This document shows, piece by piece, positions 9,384 to 43,954 of a DNA stretch of 58,911 bases (position 1 is the stretch's first letter; each line of letters opens with the position of its first letter). The notes below the pieces were generated by a model. It was not told where the DNA came from, made no database searches, and saw only the letters and a program-made list of their open reading frames with translations. Origin of the DNA: a virus; the IMG/VR virus record IMGVR_UViG_3300036853_000162, positions 1-58,911 of that record. One strand, written 5' to 3'. A program made the position numbers and the translations under genes.

Positions 9384-9448
9384 GGAAAAAATTAACGCCC
9401 GCCCCGGAAAAAATTAACGAAAACCCTATCGCCACGTTAATTTTTTCC
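9384..9448. repeat. Left repeat cluster, GGAAAAAATTAACG motif
   Basis: GGAAAAAATTAACG occurs at 9384-9397 and 9406-9419, and its exact reverse complement at 9435-9448. The inner pair forms a 14-bp inverted repeat around a 15-base loop. A partial copy GGAAAAAAT at 9481-9489 includes the start codon of the next gene. Confidence 0.75.
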
Positions 9449-9487
9449 GGCGGTCAGCCCTCTCCACAGGCGGATTCATCGGAAAAA

Positions 9488-10479: not shown

Positions 10480-10995
10480 ATGATTACCCCAACCGAGACA
10501 GTAACCTGGGATAAGAACGGGCACACGGTCGAAATCGTCGTGTCACCCCGCTCTCTGGACATCTCTCTGGATGGCAAGCGCCTTTGCACGACTGGCATGT
10601 TCCAGCCTGCCCCCGCGCATATGAAGGCACAGGGCGCAGTTGCGGTCGCTGGCCCACTCGCTCTGACTCAGGAGCGTCATGATCAGCTTCAGGCAGTGTG
10701 GAATCGCGTGAAGGCGCAACCAGCGCAGTCTGAGCCTATCGACGAATTCTTTAAGCTTGAGGGTGCGTTGATTACAGCACGCGAAGGTGTGCGCACGCAC
10801 ATGGATCGCTCCCACGGCAATCCTGCTCAGGCTTACGCACAAGAGGCCAAGGCCGAGAAAGACCTTCAGGCGTGGATTGATGCTCACCAGGATGATGAGT
10901 CCTACCGCAGTGAGATCGCCCGCCGCAAACGTACTGCGGTGACTTATCAAGAAGCCTATAACTTGTCCCAGGATGGTCGCGGTCAGGATTATTAA
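10480..10995 (+). CDS. Hypothetical protein, first gene of an operator-controlled operon
   Basis: 171 residues. The N-terminus is beta-rich (VTWDKNGHTVEIVVSPRSL), the rest long helices with many Gln and Glu. No motif recognised. It is transcribed from the operator-bearing promoter at 10407 together with the small HTH gene just downstream. Confidence 0.6.
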   Translation: MITPTETVTWDKNGHTVEIVVSPRSLDISLDGKRLCTTGMFQPAPAHMKAQGAVAVAGPLALTQERHDQLQAVWNRVKAQPAQSEPIDEFFKLEGALITAREGVRTHMDRSHGNPAQAYAQEAKAEKDLQAWIDAHQDDESYRSEIARRKRTAVTYQEAYNLSQDGRGQDY

Positions 10996-11794: not shown

Positions 11795-11830
11795 TCGCTA
11801 TGTCAGATTGCCAGTCCTGCGGTAGTCGAC

Positions 11831-11880
11831 ACAAAGAGGAGCGGGCTTGAGCGAAAATGCTCAGGCCCGCTCCTCTTTGT
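11831..11880. terminator. Bidirectional terminator between convergent genes
   Basis: A 22-base arm at 11831-11852 pairs with 11859-11880 (one G-T pair), loop GAAAAT. A/T-rich ends on both sides fit termination of the + gene at 11546 and the minus gene at 11907. Confidence 0.8.
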
Positions 11881-11906
11881 GTTCTCCGGCTGCCTCTGCC
11901 ATCGTA

Positions 11907-13395: not shown

Positions 13396-13401
13396 CGCAA
13401 A

Positions 13402-13443
13402 GCAAAGAGGGGGCAGATCGTGATTGATCTGCCCGCCCTTTGC
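13402..13443 (+). terminator. Intrinsic terminator
   Basis: GGGCAGATC (13411-13419) pairs with GATCTGCCC (13426-13434), extended by GCAAAG/CTTTGC flanks. It closes the 12562 operon. Confidence 0.75.
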
Positions 13444-13493
13444 TGTGTCTGGGGTGACTTTTGGCGGGATGGAGAAACTCATGGCAAAACCCC

Positions 13494-14610: not shown

Positions 14611-14613
14611 AGC

Positions 14614-14660
14614 AAAAAGAGGGGGCAAGTTTGATATTATCAAACTTGCCCCCTCTTTTT
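14614..14660. terminator. Perfect bidirectional terminator between early and late operons
   Basis: A 23-base arm at 14614-14636 pairs perfectly with 14638-14660, with A5 and T5 at the outer ends. It serves both the + strand early genes and the minus-strand late operon, which converge here. Confidence 0.9.
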
Positions 14661-14663
14661 GTG

Positions 14664-36113: not shown

Positions 36114-37514
36114 TCAGTAGCCTCTTAGCCTGGTTGTGATACGATCCTCGACACGCCGGATCGTGCGGGACCCGGCGTCCAGGCCCGCAACAGCATAGCG
36201 AGCTGCGTCTTCCGCATGATTGTTTTCGTCCACCGGGATCTCCTTCACCGGCCTCCCGTCTTTCGACAGCGGCCATATATAGGTGTCCATCTCGCCCTCG
36301 ATGCCTAATGGTTTATGCGCACTTGCCAGGCTCTCATCCCGATCTTTGAGCGCGTACTCATAGACAAAGTAACGCGGCCTGCCATCACCAGCCGGAGCCA
36401 GGCGCTGCTGCAAGAAGCTGATGCCCGGCGCAATATCGTTGAATGCACCGGTTGCGTGCATCCCACGCCCCTGAAACTGCGCGATATAGGCGGGTTCTGA
36501 CGGGTCGCAATGCCATCTTTCGATAGAGAACTCTTGTTGAAGTTGGGCAGCTCGCTCTAGCCACCAATCAATGGTCTTACGTGTTTGGTAGACCTCTCGC
36601 ATGAGGTACATCCGCTCGTCGTTGTCTACCGCGTACACATGAATGACCCCTGGATTGGTGAAACCCCAGTCTACTGAGGCGATAAACTTCCTGACCTTCC
36701 ATTGGTTGATAGTGCCATCGATATTGAGGATGGACCACTCGACCAACGTCGCCTTGCTCACCACATGAACGGCGCTATCCCACTGCTCATAGACCACGCC
36801 CTCTGCTGCCTGCCATTTGCCGTCTACAAACCGCGCCTTGAGGACGCCGGTCAGCCCGCCCAGGATACCGAAGATGTATTCTCTGCCCTCCGATGTCCAG
36901 TCCTGTGTTCTCAGATCGAAGTAGCGTGGATTGTCACGGTGATAACTCTTGAGTCGCCTCGTGGTGCCCTTGAGCATTCGCTGATTGAGCCAGTGTGACG
37001 GTGGACCAGGATTGCAGTCCATAATGAGTTGCCGATAGGGCACATCAGGCCCGCCAGTACGCCCACGTAACCGCATACGCACGAAATCAGCATTCTCCTG
37101 ACTGCATTCCGTGGCCTCATTGATATACGCCCAGTCAAATTCTGCTGAGAGTACTTTCTCTGGCTTGTCCAGACCGTTCACGATCATCTCTGAGCCATTG
37201 GGATAGCGAAAGGCGGCGGGTTCTACTTTGTTGCCCCCAAACCACTTGATGTCCGTCCGTTGCCTGCGCACATTATCCCGATACGTGACCATCGCAGCGC
37301 CCGCCAGTGCAGTGCTGGTCTTCCTGGCAACGAGCGCCCGAGCGCCTGCGTATTTATCGAGCAGGCGGTGGATCTTATAAAGAGCGCCAATGGTCTTGCC
37401 TGTCCCTGCTGGCCCATCAAGACAGACCTCCCGATCAGTGCATGATCCCAGGTAGAGCGAAGCACCGCGCAACTCAAGCGCCTTGATGCGATAGGAGACA
37501 GAGGCGTTACTCAT
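36114..37514 (-). CDS. terL: Terminase large subunit (TerL)
   Basis: 466 residues. Walker A DGPAGTGKT at residues 33-41, Walker B FDWAYINEA, coupling-motif region, and the C-terminal RNase H-like nuclease with SVDWGFTNPG and a DPSEP acidic site. It translocates and cuts DNA at the portal. The start overlaps TerS by 8 bases. Confidence 0.93.
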   Translation of the reverse strand: MSNASVSYRIKALELRGASLYLGSCTDREVCLDGPAGTGKTIGALYKIHRLLDKYAGARALVARKTSTALAGAAMVTYRDNVRRQRTDIKWFGGNKVEPAAFRYPNGSEMIVNGLDKPEKVLSAEFDWAYINEATECSQENADFVRMRLRGRTGGPDVPYRQLIMDCNPGPPSHWLNQRMLKGTTRRLKSYHRDNPRYFDLRTQDWTSEGREYIFGILGGLTGVLKARFVDGKWQAAEGVVYEQWDSAVHVVSKATLVEWSILNIDGTINQWKVRKFIASVDWGFTNPGVIHVYAVDNDERMYLMREVYQTRKTIDWWLERAAQLQQEFSIERWHCDPSEPAYIAQFQGRGMHATGAFNDIAPGISFLQQRLAPAGDGRPRYFVYEYALKDRDESLASAHKPLGIEGEMDTYIWPLSKDGRPVKEIPVDENNHAEDAARYAVAGLDAGSRTIRRVEDRITTRLRGY

Positions 37515-37935
37515 TCCGTGGCCCCTCTAAGTAGCCAGCAGGCACCTCTTCGATGATCACTTGTGGACCCACAAACCCATCCACTTTGACATCAAGGCCA
37601 AAGAGCTTTGCCCTGCGCTCCATTACCGCCAGTATCCGGTCAGCCGCGAACAGGCGTATTTTGTTGTTCCTGTCCAGAAACAGCTTCATGCATTCCGATT
37701 GCAGCAAATCCAGCGTGACCGCCTCCTCCTGACGCAATTCTTCCACATTGGCAACCACCACCCGCTGCATCTCGCGTTGAATAGCATGATGCGCCGCGCC
37801 ACGATCCGCATACCCGCATTGCTCAGCAATCTTCGCATAACTCGTTTTAGCGGCCCTCAACTGGAGCGCAAGAGCTGCCCGCTGTGCTGCATTTATATCC
37901 CGCGTTGTAGTCTTTGCGTTGTGCCGTTCAGCCAC
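37507..37935 (-). CDS. terS: Terminase small subunit (TerS)
   Basis: 142 residues. The N-terminal HTH (RAAKTSYAKIAEQCGYADRG) followed by a central coiled coil and a short beta tail is the usual TerS layout. It recognises the packaging site, which in many phages lies in or near this gene. Confidence 0.8.
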   Translation of the reverse strand: MAERHNAKTTTRDINAAQRAALALQLRAAKTSYAKIAEQCGYADRGAAHHAIQREMQRVVVANVEELRQEEAVTLDLLQSECMKLFLDRNNKIRLFAADRILAVMERRAKLFGLDVKVDGFVGPQVIIEEVPAGYLEGPRNE

Positions 37936-39364
37936 GAGCTACCTCCTCAATGTGTTCCAGTAATGTGGCGGTCTGGCCTGTATGCTTCTCCCACCTGGCG
38001 ATCACAACATCACAGTATTCTGGGCTGAGTTCACACCCATAGACCACACGGTTGTCATTTAGCATTTCGGCCCCGATAATGCTGATTCCCGATCCTAAAA
38101 AAGGGTCAAAAATAACATCTCCAGGTTTTCCATATTTTTCAGCACACCAGCAAAACAAAGCACATGGCTTCTGCGTGGGATGTACGCGCCGCTGGCCATG
38201 CTCGCTATCTTTGAGCATCCCATTCCACATGTGCTTGAAGATACGCACCGCGCTCTTGTCGCTACACCACGCTAACTCGGCATCGGCAAAGTTGCCGGTA
38301 TTCTCCTTGTCCCACACAATCCAGCAGGGCGACGGCGGCAGAGCATACGCATAATAGTTCGCGCCCCACCAGATCTGTACAGCGGTAGACCAATACTGAG
38401 AACAGAGATTATAGGCCGCGATGGCAGTAGCGGTGCTATCGTCCCCAATGACGGGGAAGTACTTGCCTACCTCGACCACGTTCGTGGCTCCGTCGGAGCC
38501 ACGAACGGCTTTGCTTCCGAAGGGCTTAGAGGCTCCGTCGGAGCCTCTAAGCCCTTGCTGCTGCTCCGCAAGGTATGATTTGCCTGTCTTGCGCATGTGG
38601 GCGGCGGTGCCGCCCACATCGCCCTTGCGATGCTTCACACCACCGAAGGGAATATCGTAGGCTTCACCGCCACCAACGTATCCGTTGGTGGCGACTATAT
38701 CAAGGCCGTAGGGAGGATCGGCCCATATCATGTGCGGAATGGCGTCAGTGAACAGACGTTTTACCTGACTGATATCAAGGCTGTTGATACAGGCTATCCG
38801 ATGCCTACCCAGTTGCCAGATATCACCGACCTTCGCCCGCGTCTCTACCTCTTCGGGTATCTCGTCCTCTTCCCCGTCACCCTCGCCTTCCCCGCCACTG
38901 CCCACATACTCATCCCCGAGCGCCTCTAGTATCTGCCGCAGCGCCTCCTCATCCGTTCCCAACGACGCCAGATCGTAGCCCGCGTCGGCCTGCTCCTGGA
39001 GCAATGCAACCAGGAGCTGATCATCATCCTCTGCGTTCAGGGCAATGTTGTTATCAGCCACGAGGATACCGTCTATCGTCTCCTGTGATGTTGAGGCAGG
39101 CAAGATATCAGCGCGTACCTCATGCTCGCCACGCTGTTTCATGGCCTCCACGATGCCATGGCCAGCCACCTGCACATACCCACCGCCAGGACGTTCCCAG
39201 AGCACCACAGAGCGATACTGAGAGAAACGCTCATGTGACGCCTTGAGTTGTCTCATCTGCTCATCGGGATGAGTCCGAGGATTGCGCGGGTGTGGCGTGA
39301 TCCGGTCAATCGAAACCATCCGATTCACAATTGACCACTCTGTGGGCGCGGTGGTTTTTCTCAT
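37928..39364 (-). CDS. ParB-domain DNA methyltransferase carrying an insert with four palindromes
   Basis: 478 residues. Residues 20-110 are a ParB/sulfiredoxin-like domain (HPRNPRTHPDEQMRQL, VAGHGIVEAMKQRG). Residues 185-470 are an N6-adenine/N4-cytosine methyltransferase of the beta type: DPPYG at 216-220 (motif IV) and FDPFLGSG at 419-426 (motif I). Between DPPYG and the usual IxGDD region there is an unusual stretch (about residues 224-297) with RGSDGA twice, encoded by four perfect inverted repeats. The fused type is common just before phage terminases. AdoMet-dependent methylation of phage DNA is the likely role. Confidence 0.88.
   Translation of the reverse strand: MRKTTAPTEWSIVNRMVSIDRITPHPRNPRTHPDEQMRQLKASHERFSQYRSVVLWERPGGGYVQVAGHGIVEAMKQRGEHEVRADILPASTSQETIDGILVADNNIALNAEDDDQLLVALLQEQADAGYDLASLGTDEEALRQILEALGDEYVGSGGEGEGDGEEDEIPEEVETRAKVGDIWQLGRHRIACINSLDISQVKRLFTDAIPHMIWADPPYGLDIVATNGYVGGGEAYDIPFGGVKHRKGDVGGTAAHMRKTGKSYLAEQQQGLRGSDGASKPFGSKAVRGSDGATNVVEVGKYFPVIGDDSTATAIAAYNLCSQYWSTAVQIWWGANYYAYALPPSPCWIVWDKENTGNFADAELAWCSDKSAVRIFKHMWNGMLKDSEHGQRRVHPTQKPCALFCWCAEKYGKPGDVIFDPFLGSGISIIGAEMLNDNRVVYGCELSPEYCDVVIARWEKHTGQTATLLEHIEEVARG
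38479..38693. repeat. Four perfect inverted repeats inside the methyltransferase gene
   Basis: Arms: 14 bp (38479-38492/38494-38507), 18 bp (38520-38537/38539-38556), 11 bp (38595-38605/38609-38619) and 11 bp (38668-38678/38683-38693). The first two share the core GGCTCCGTCGGAGCC. All keep the reading frame. Confidence 0.85.
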
Positions 39365-41888: not shown

Positions 41889-42911
41889 GTGGCATCTCCC
41901 CAAAAAACTGAGCCTACATTCAAGCACCCTGGTTGGAGGCGCTGTATACGTGATTTCCTGGCAGATATCCGGGCACGCAATCCGAAAGCGACCACACACA
42001 CGACCTACGTCGGCCATCTACGGCGTTTCTTCCTCGATCCCGGCAAACGGCCCGACACCTATACCAAGGGCGATGTCGAGCAGTACCTTATCGCCTCATT
42101 CGATGATCCGTCAACTCCTGTCGGCCCACACACTCGCAATGGCCGCCTGATCGCCCTCGGGGCTTTCTTCAGGTATGCCAAGACCTACCGCGTCCCGAAT
42201 GGCAACGGTGATACGCGTCCTCTGGTGCGCAAGAACTGGACGCCTCCAACCGAAGGCGTGGCCTGGGGTAAGACCACCACGAAACGCCGCCAACTCTCCC
42301 CGTCTCAGGTCAAAGCATTCTTTCAGGCGATCGAGGAGCACACACGCAATCCTGTCCGGCGGGCACGCGACCGAGCGCTTTTCATGCTCTATTTGCGGAC
42401 AGGACGCCGCCTGCGTGAGATCGCGGGCCTGCTCTGGGGGGACATCGAGATCCAGGAGATGCGAGGCAAAAATGGTCAGAAGTATGAGGGCTGGGTATAC
42501 CACTGGCGAGGCAAGGGGCACGTCGAGAAGGATGACTGCGCGGAGATTCCGCAGGGCGCGGTGGTCGCGCTCAAAGCCTATCTGGTCCTCAGCGAGCGAT
42601 GGGGCCATCTCACGGCCACCGATCCGCTTTTCCCCGGTTGGCGCAACCAGCCTATGAGCTGGTCCAACATCGTCTCTCTCTTCCGCCAGTACCGTGAACT
42701 GGCCGGGATCGATGCGGAGAAAGGCGGGACACACAGCCTGCGCAGGCGGGCGGCCCGTGATCGCTACGAAGTCTCAGGGCATGATCTTCTGGAGGTGCAG
42801 CAGTTCCTGCGCCACAAGGACATCCATACCACGATGATCTATGTGCAAGGCCCGCCAGAGGAGGCCGACGCATTTGCCGCCGAATTGGATGGTCGCTACA
42901 GCAATTTATAA
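41889..42911 (+). CDS. int: Tyrosine-family integrase
   Basis: 340 residues; start GTG 41889 with GGAAGG about 9 bases upstream. The N-terminal SAM-like core-binding domain (TTHTTYVGHLRRFFLDPG) precedes a catalytic domain with YLRTGRRLREIAGLLW (first Arg), HSLRRRAARDRY (HxxR), FLRHKDIHTTMIY with the nucleophile Tyr at about residue 318. It performs site-specific recombination between attP and the host attB. The 220-bp flanks (41654-41888 and 42912-43080) are the likely attP locations; no core site can be named without the host junction. Confidence 0.92.
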   Translation: MASPQKTEPTFKHPGWRRCIRDFLADIRARNPKATTHTTYVGHLRRFFLDPGKRPDTYTKGDVEQYLIASFDDPSTPVGPHTRNGRLIALGAFFRYAKTYRVPNGNGDTRPLVRKNWTPPTEGVAWGKTTTKRRQLSPSQVKAFFQAIEEHTRNPVRRARDRALFMLYLRTGRRLREIAGLLWGDIEIQEMRGKNGQKYEGWVYHWRGKGHVEKDDCAEIPQGAVVALKAYLVLSERWGHLTATDPLFPGWRNQPMSWSNIVSLFRQYRELAGIDAEKGGTHSLRRRAARDRYEVSGHDLLEVQQFLRHKDIHTTMIYVQGPPEEADAFAAELDGRYSNL

Positions 42912-43080
42912 TCTGAGCAGTCCGGACAATTCTGAACTTGCACGGGACTCTCCGGTACTGCAATGACAGACAATAGGAGCACGAGCGTGTTTTGCGCGAT
43001 AAGTGGGTCGCATGGGTGTCACATAGTATGCATTCCGATCCATACGACCGCAGGCCATGATGCCTGGATGACGGCAACAC

Positions 43081-43122
43081 AAAGCGAGCGAGATACCGTA
43101 GCTACGGTATCTCGCTCGCTTT
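43081..43122. terminator. 42-bp perfect palindrome between integrase and minus operon
   Basis: A 21-base arm (43081-43101) is the exact reverse complement of 43102-43122, with AAA/TTT ends. It lies just downstream of the minus-strand gene ending at 43134 and downstream of int, so a bidirectional terminator is the simplest reading. With no loop it could also be a recombination or protein-binding site. Confidence 0.65.
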
Positions 43123-43133
43123 GTCGGACCGGA

Positions 43134-43760
43134 TTAGCGGCGTTCTAGCCAGTCGATCACGTCGCCGTAATCCAGGAGCAGCGCTTCCAATCCGGGGAAC
43201 CAGGTTAACGGCGCGGCTCTGAGGGTATCCAGCCGCAGGTTCGCCGCCCGCCAGACCTGATCGTTGAACCAGATGGTGAGCCGCTTTTGCTCGCTGAGCT
43301 CACCCGCGCTCTTGACGAGTTGAGAGTAAGCAGCATCACCGCGAACGCGGGCTACACACTTCAATTCACGCAAGCTCTGGAGCTTATCGGCCACGCTAAT
43401 GAGTAGCGCGTGCGGTGTGACCTGGCTCAGATGCGTAATATAGGCGTCTTTCCTCTCCTGCCATGGTGCCTTGCGCGGGCTACTGGTACCGACCTCCGTG
43501 CATTCCAATACCAGATCTACCACACGCGACGGCATGATCTGGCGCAACTGGGTCGCCGTATACGAGGTGTCCTCAAGAACATCGTGTAAGAGCGCCGCGG
43601 CCACGACCTCATCGTCGCCGCCAGCAGCCTGTACCATCCCTGCTACCTCCATCAGATGCGAGTAGTACGGCACTCCCCGCACCAGGGACGCCTTACGTAA
43701 TTGCCCATCGTGTAGATCGCCCGCCAACGCGGCGGCACGTAGAATAAGATCTCGGCTCAC
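43134..43760 (-). CDS. Stand-alone HD hydrolase, SpoT/MESH1-like ((p)ppGpp hydrolase candidate)
   Basis: 208 residues from GTG 43760 (GGAGAGGG upstream). HDGQLRKASLVRGVPYYSHLME, VVAAALLHDVLEDTSYT (HD motif plus ED) and LLISVADKLQSLREL follow the HD_4 family of RelA/SpoT hydrolase domains. No synthetase, TGS or ACT domain is present, so this is a small alarmone hydrolase type. Lowering (p)ppGpp could keep the host in growth mode during infection or counter alarmone-based defence. Substrate is inferred. Confidence 0.8.
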   Translation of the reverse strand: MSRDLILRAAALAGDLHDGQLRKASLVRGVPYYSHLMEVAGMVQAAGGDDEVVAAALLHDVLEDTSYTATQLRQIMPSRVVDLVLECTEVGTSSPRKAPWQERKDAYITHLSQVTPHALLISVADKLQSLRELKCVARVRGDAAYSQLVKSAGELSEQKRLTIWFNDQVWRAANLRLDTLRAAPLTWFPGLEALLLDYGDVIDWLERR

Positions 43761-43954
43761 TCGCCCTCTCCTTTCGCTTTCGCCTCTGCCCGTTCCCACT
43801 CCGCGAAGAGCAGGGCGGCGGCTTCGGGCGCGACGAGATGCAGCAGATTGATCGCCATGCCGCAGAATTCCTCCAGCAGCGCGACCCGTTCGCGTAACGT
43901 GGCCAACTCCTGTAACGGCCACATGATTTCATCGACCTGCTCTTGTGTGCTCAT
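43757..43954 (-). CDS. Small helical protein
   Basis: 65 residues from ATG 43954 (GGAGG 5 bases upstream). Predicted leucine-rich coiled coil (ELATLRERVALLEEFCG). Coupled by GTGA overlap with the HD hydrolase; it could be its partner. Confidence 0.6.
   Translation of the reverse strand: MSTQEQVDEIMWPLQELATLRERVALLEEFCGMAINLLHLVAPEAAALLFAEWERAEAKAKGEGE

Follow-up and report, generated by a model that had tools for sequence, protein, structure and literature searches.

How does a virus gene come to carry four perfect palindromes within the stretch that encodes a single loop of its protein, and what keeps their arms complementary? The question arises from IMG/VR virus record IMGVR_UViG_3300036853_000162, which we analysed as one stretch of 58,911 nt (positions 1 to 58,911 of the record), referred to below as the window. 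The palindromes lie in the first of these genes, in the loop given on the second line:

37928..39364, minus strand: predicted gene for a ParB-domain plus beta-class N6-adenine DNA methyltransferase, host of the palindromes (478-aa ORF)
38462..38704, minus strand: flexible loop, residues 221–301, from DPPYG to YFPVIGDD (302–309), with all four palindromes inside (AF2 model and residue map)
37507..37935, minus strand: neighbour gene in the place of the terminase small subunit (PHROG 645, labelled 'RNase E' in PHROG)
36114..37514, minus strand: terminase large subunit (Pfam Terminase_3; PHROG 5653 and others)

The 478-aa protein matches Pfam N6_N4_Mtase (3.6e-13) and the DNA methyltransferase family PHROG 498 (2e-74), and its N-terminal part matches several ParB-like PHROGs, with PHROG 620 and others covering residues 15–167. 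In a Foldseek search the AF2 model resembled ParB structures as well as CcrM and M.BceJIV, and the order of the motifs, DPPYG at residues 216–220 before DPFLGSG near residue 420, fits the DPPY-then-FxGxG layout. From these domains and this motif order we predict a beta-class N6-adenine DNA methyltransferase with an N-terminal ParB domain. The model has a mean pLDDT of 80, yet falls below 50 at residues 225–252, 269–286 and 288–299, which is consistent with a tolerant, flexible loop, and by comparison with the beta-class enzymes solved with DNA (CcrM, M.BceJIV) this loop would face the DNA. As for the neighbouring gene, the PHROG 645 family is found in the same place in one relative (L056) and near it in another (L032), and its 'RNase E' label may be wrong.

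The four palindromes, whose coordinates carry no strand, are:

38668..38693: palindrome A, 11-nt arms, 4-nt spacer, residues 224–233 (VATNGYVGGG)
38595..38619: palindrome B, 11-nt arms, 3-nt spacer, residues 249–257 (DVGGTAAHM)
38520..38556: palindrome C, 18-nt arms, 1-nt spacer, residues 270–282 (encodes GLRGSDGASKPF)
38479..38507: palindrome D, 14-nt arms, 1-nt spacer, residues 286–296 (VRGSDGATN)

The first-pass annotation of this DNA had reported four perfect inverted repeats with these arms and places, and all four are indeed found in the loop of the minus-strand ORF after DPPYG. Its further observation that two of them have a common core also holds: C and D, the two with the lowest coordinates, share GGCTCCGTCGGAGCC and RGSDGA is encoded twice, while apart from this core the four palindromes are mutually dissimilar. 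It had also considered the cluster very unlikely to be due to chance, and this we can now put in figures. In 400 synonymous recodings, with the protein and the codon usage of the gene itself held fixed, the loop contained on average 0.010 palindromes with arms of at least 10 nt, at most one in any recoding and with a longest arm of 12, against the four observed, with arms of up to 18. The same null applied to 12 genes predicts 0.003–0.025 loop palindromes where 1–4 are observed. The four palindromes are real and go beyond a coding explanation. Antisense ORFs across the loop bear the same palindromes, which explain them.

Other repeats occur in the window as well. A perfect 46-bp palindrome with 23-nt arms and no spacer (43079–43124) lies between the ORFs at 42652–43080 and 43134–43922, not far from the integrase at 41889–42911. 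Long inverted repeats with 22–24-nt arms and AAAGAGG-type arm ends, which may be terminators, are found at 14613–14661, 11829–11882 and 13398–13447. At 9384–9450, GGAAAAAATTAACG has two direct copies and one inverted copy within 70 bases, an arrangement like that of iterons in a region for control or replication, and GTGAAG/CTTCAC motifs are repeated over about 130 bases at 2800–2930.

Relatives of the gene were collected from scans of viral contigs, with stop-to-stop ORFs as gene calls, and numbered 102 distinct genes at first count. At least one palindrome, defined as a perfect inverted repeat with an arm of at least 10 and a spacer of at most 5, is present in 27 of these, with one to five per gene (the maximum of five in L167) and nearly all within the loop. 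In a larger set of relatives, their occurrence follows loop length (Spearman 0.78): 22 of 23 long-loop genes have palindromes, as do 10 of 78 short-loop genes. With the loop region taken as DPPYG to the WGGN motif, 67 palindromes of this set fell in the 21 kb of loop region and 2 in the remaining 105 kb of the same genes, that is, 3.16/kb against 0.019/kb. By rough ORF calls, methyltransferase ORFs (162 kb) contain 32 palindromes with arms of at least 12, and other ORFs (1524 kb) contain 10. The palindromes of the relatives have arms of 10–31 nt, and the proteins of the palindromic phages are about 40–70% identical. On a tree from which the loop was left out, palindromes are present in 18 of the 20 members of the clade of the window, and their presence or absence changes at least eight times over 49 genes, so that they have arisen or been lost outside this clade too (L148, L099, L181/L186, L150, L156).

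All palindromic sequences are metagenomic contigs, and those closest to the window may be incompletely covered. Three cultured phages with related enzymes (PaV-LD, pOW20-A and Jambalaya) have short or different loops, with no palindrome listed, and one long loop, used as a tblastn query against phage records, matched nothing. Scanning 84,980 species genomes for KPFG-spacer-RGxxG returned eight matches, which look like chance and not like clear homologues. One relative, L267, ends at positions 10733–10949 in a loop palindrome with 28-nt arms that is out of frame with the relatives, which could be a real extension or an assembly artefact.

Compared across phages, the arms differ in sequence yet stay complementary. 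In the VRG[ST]xG[AS]xN segment a change at one base almost always has its match at the partner position, such that the Arg codons CGA, CGC, CGT and AGA pair with Ser TCG, Ala GCG, Thr ACG and Ser TCT, respectively. In 29 sequences, 87.8% of cells are paired, against 33–41% when the partners are slid, and double-changed cells number 47, against 17.3 in shuffles and 3–11 with slid partners; the shuffle count is not a probability, the sequences being related, while the slid controls keep this relatedness. Pairing is codon to codon in 65 of 75 palindromes, as expected when both arms are translated. Mismatches among 319 inner pairs comprise 8 G.T and 7 A.C, and because G.T is no commoner than A.C, this argues for a constraint that acts on the DNA and not on RNA hairpins.

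The most direct indication of what happens at these sites comes from two relatives, L268 and L273, whose alignment around the gene has 99 differences in 2000 positions (about 95% identity). Their spacers are inverted in three of four palindromes, exactly in one case (CAATA/TATTG) and with one extra change in each of the other two (ATTGGG/TCCAAT and TTATCG/CGATAG), and arms that are perfect in L273 have single mismatches in L268. Four more loci (L173, L174, L263 and L264) match L268 but are in part duplicates of one another, the closely related L149, L151 and L156 have no flips, and direct flips are seen in one near-identical pair only. A further inversion-like window between L268 and L273, outside the palindromes, is probably due to chance, as any such window arose in 20 of 300 random-substitution simulations. 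Across the relatives both orientations of a spacer are found (GTATCC in 6 and GGATAC in 3; GTC in 15 and GAC in 9; ACC in 2 and GGT in 2), and the D residue at the last palindrome, present in five genes, takes five separate steps on the loop-free tree. When each palindrome of the window is flipped in silico, no stop arises and the resulting residues occur in relatives: A becomes VATNVSVGGG, present in L171 and L066; B becomes DVGGGAAHM, with DVGGGASHM carried by L167 and L152; and D becomes VRGSVGATN, the centre being V or I in many relatives. These comparisons contain both arms that have become more complementary in one lineage (homogenisation) and, where arms are longer than 9 bp, spacers that are inverted between closely related phages.

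We suggest, with a probability of roughly 0.7, that this is a micro-inversion hotspot: a group of coding palindromes, invertible by template switching and clustered in the flexible loop that follows the catalytic DPPYG motif. During DNA replication the nascent strand would switch template between the two arms of a short inverted repeat, and the copying of one arm onto the other would keep complementarity perfect while the arm sequence drifts. The spacer of 1–6 nt would be inverted in the process, by which one or two residues flip (D/V, T/G, GY/VS or AN/VG), and such flips would leave the frame intact, given that most arms pair codon to codon and that change is tolerated in the loop. Polymerase template switching has just this signature, homogenised arms together with inverted spacers (PMC8604942, PMC8794818), and we infer it as the agent over other hairpin-dependent processes. 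A site-specific recombinase was considered and set aside, as the arms have no consensus and spacers of 1–6 nt do not fit. Two points weigh on the other side: selection on DNA structure, as a cruciform or single-stranded DNA hairpin, would also yield perfect arms, and template switching leaves unexplained why, among permissive phage loops, it is this one and almost no other that gathers palindromes. It is possible, though we consider it rather doubtful, that the palindromes serve as a contingency device, namely as tiny invertible switches in a DNA-facing loop, of which four or five flipping independently could give up to 16–32 enzyme variants per phage lineage and so diversify methylation specificity or activity to escape host restriction, without a recombinase. 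The alternative to such selected switching is that flipping is merely tolerated.

The same observations bear on other explanations. The hairpins could be mRNA structures, selected for translation pausing, mRNA processing or attenuation and kept by compensatory mutation, and the strong covariation of the arms together with the very stable predicted mRNA hairpins (z −8.3) would agree with this. We nevertheless hold it to be unlikely, since RNA selection tolerates G-U pairs and the mismatch counts give no sign of this, arm length, number and sequence vary freely, and the inversion of spacers is unexpected under RNA selection. A translational bypass, one of the possibilities raised by the first-pass annotation, is unlikely as well, given that the loop residues are conserved and the codon phase of the arms makes the segment look translated; R288, G289 and G292 are invariant in a 12-protein alignment. 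Somewhat less probable than RNA selection is a role in packaging or replication, in which the palindromes would be a pac/cos site or a structure for terminase to recognise and would only by chance lie in a gene upstream of the terminase genes. The gene does lie just upstream of these in nearly all palindromic relatives tested, but the same gene order is found in relatives without palindromes, including pOW20-A, and the adjacency is therefore uninformative on packaging. Moreover, the palindromes vary in sequence, number and position, and their arms follow the codon phase.

The palindromic elements of Rickettsia are inserted in-frame within many unrelated genes and lose their repeat identity over time. 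The palindromes described here are likewise in-frame within a gene and palindromic at the DNA level, two copies have a common core, and loops are longer where palindromes occur, all of which could speak for mobile elements of this type, as the first-pass annotation had proposed. We find this very improbable, as the phage palindromes are restricted to a single gene and remain perfect. The 15-mer core has no other copy in the record, its long forms in viral contigs are found almost only in this methyltransferase gene, the long forms of the relatives cluster in the same loop, and the four palindromes of the window are otherwise unlike each other. That the palindromes were inserted is a claim that stands in one respect, relatives with a short loop do exist, and falls in another, for within the clade of the window these segments belong to the conserved protein sequence and do not represent a recent insert. 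Finally, there is next to no chance of a purely coding origin, in which conserved peptides happen to use self-complementary codons. The middle bases of V-R-G-S-x-G-A-S-N are symmetric, and the peptide thus permits a palindrome, but the synonymous null and the matched synonymous and first-position changes stand against it; the check proposed earlier, by which homologues with the same protein segment and no palindromes would point to a coding origin, fails, since synonymous sites covary with their partners. Taken as a whole, the earlier interpretation is partly supported.

The reading that we favor, template switching within the loop, has parallels in other systems. In coding inverted repeats of yeast, arm homogenisation and spacer inversion have been described, with inversion only where arms exceed 9 bp (PMC8604942). 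As in Saccharomyces, the repeats studied here are short, perfect and coding (arms of about 10–16 and spacers of 2–5 in the yeast), with one or two residues replaced and recurrent flips; unlike there, where single repeats are scattered over unrelated genes of one species (PMC8604942), several are found in one loop and are retained or re-formed across phages. In the phages the template-switch pattern is thus gathered within a single loop of the protein, and several lineages have it. Mitochondria of Nematomorpha contain coding palindromes that are kept perfect by an unknown conversion process, and share with our case perfect instead of imperfect repeats in translated genes, conserved residues encoded by both arms and a biased codon phase; they differ in that many genes and repeats of up to 284 bp are involved (PMC6649704), whereas here we see one gene, arms of 10–31, a flexible loop and spacer inversion between near-identical genomes. 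Phase variation of pneumococcal hsdS is similar in that inversions between inverted repeats in a DNA methyltransferase system alter a protein, but these take place among whole hsdS genes (PMC4948785), while the present spacers are of 1–6 nt, affect one or two residues and have no apparent recombinase site.

If our reading is true, this is a protein loop built of short palindromes that are kept perfect and flipped by errors of replication, in a gene that evolves its arms in concert and switches residues in pairs without a recombinase. It would then offer a natural system for measuring template switching in phages, and a warning that covariation need not imply RNA structure, and it may reveal a new route of variation for phage methyltransferases.
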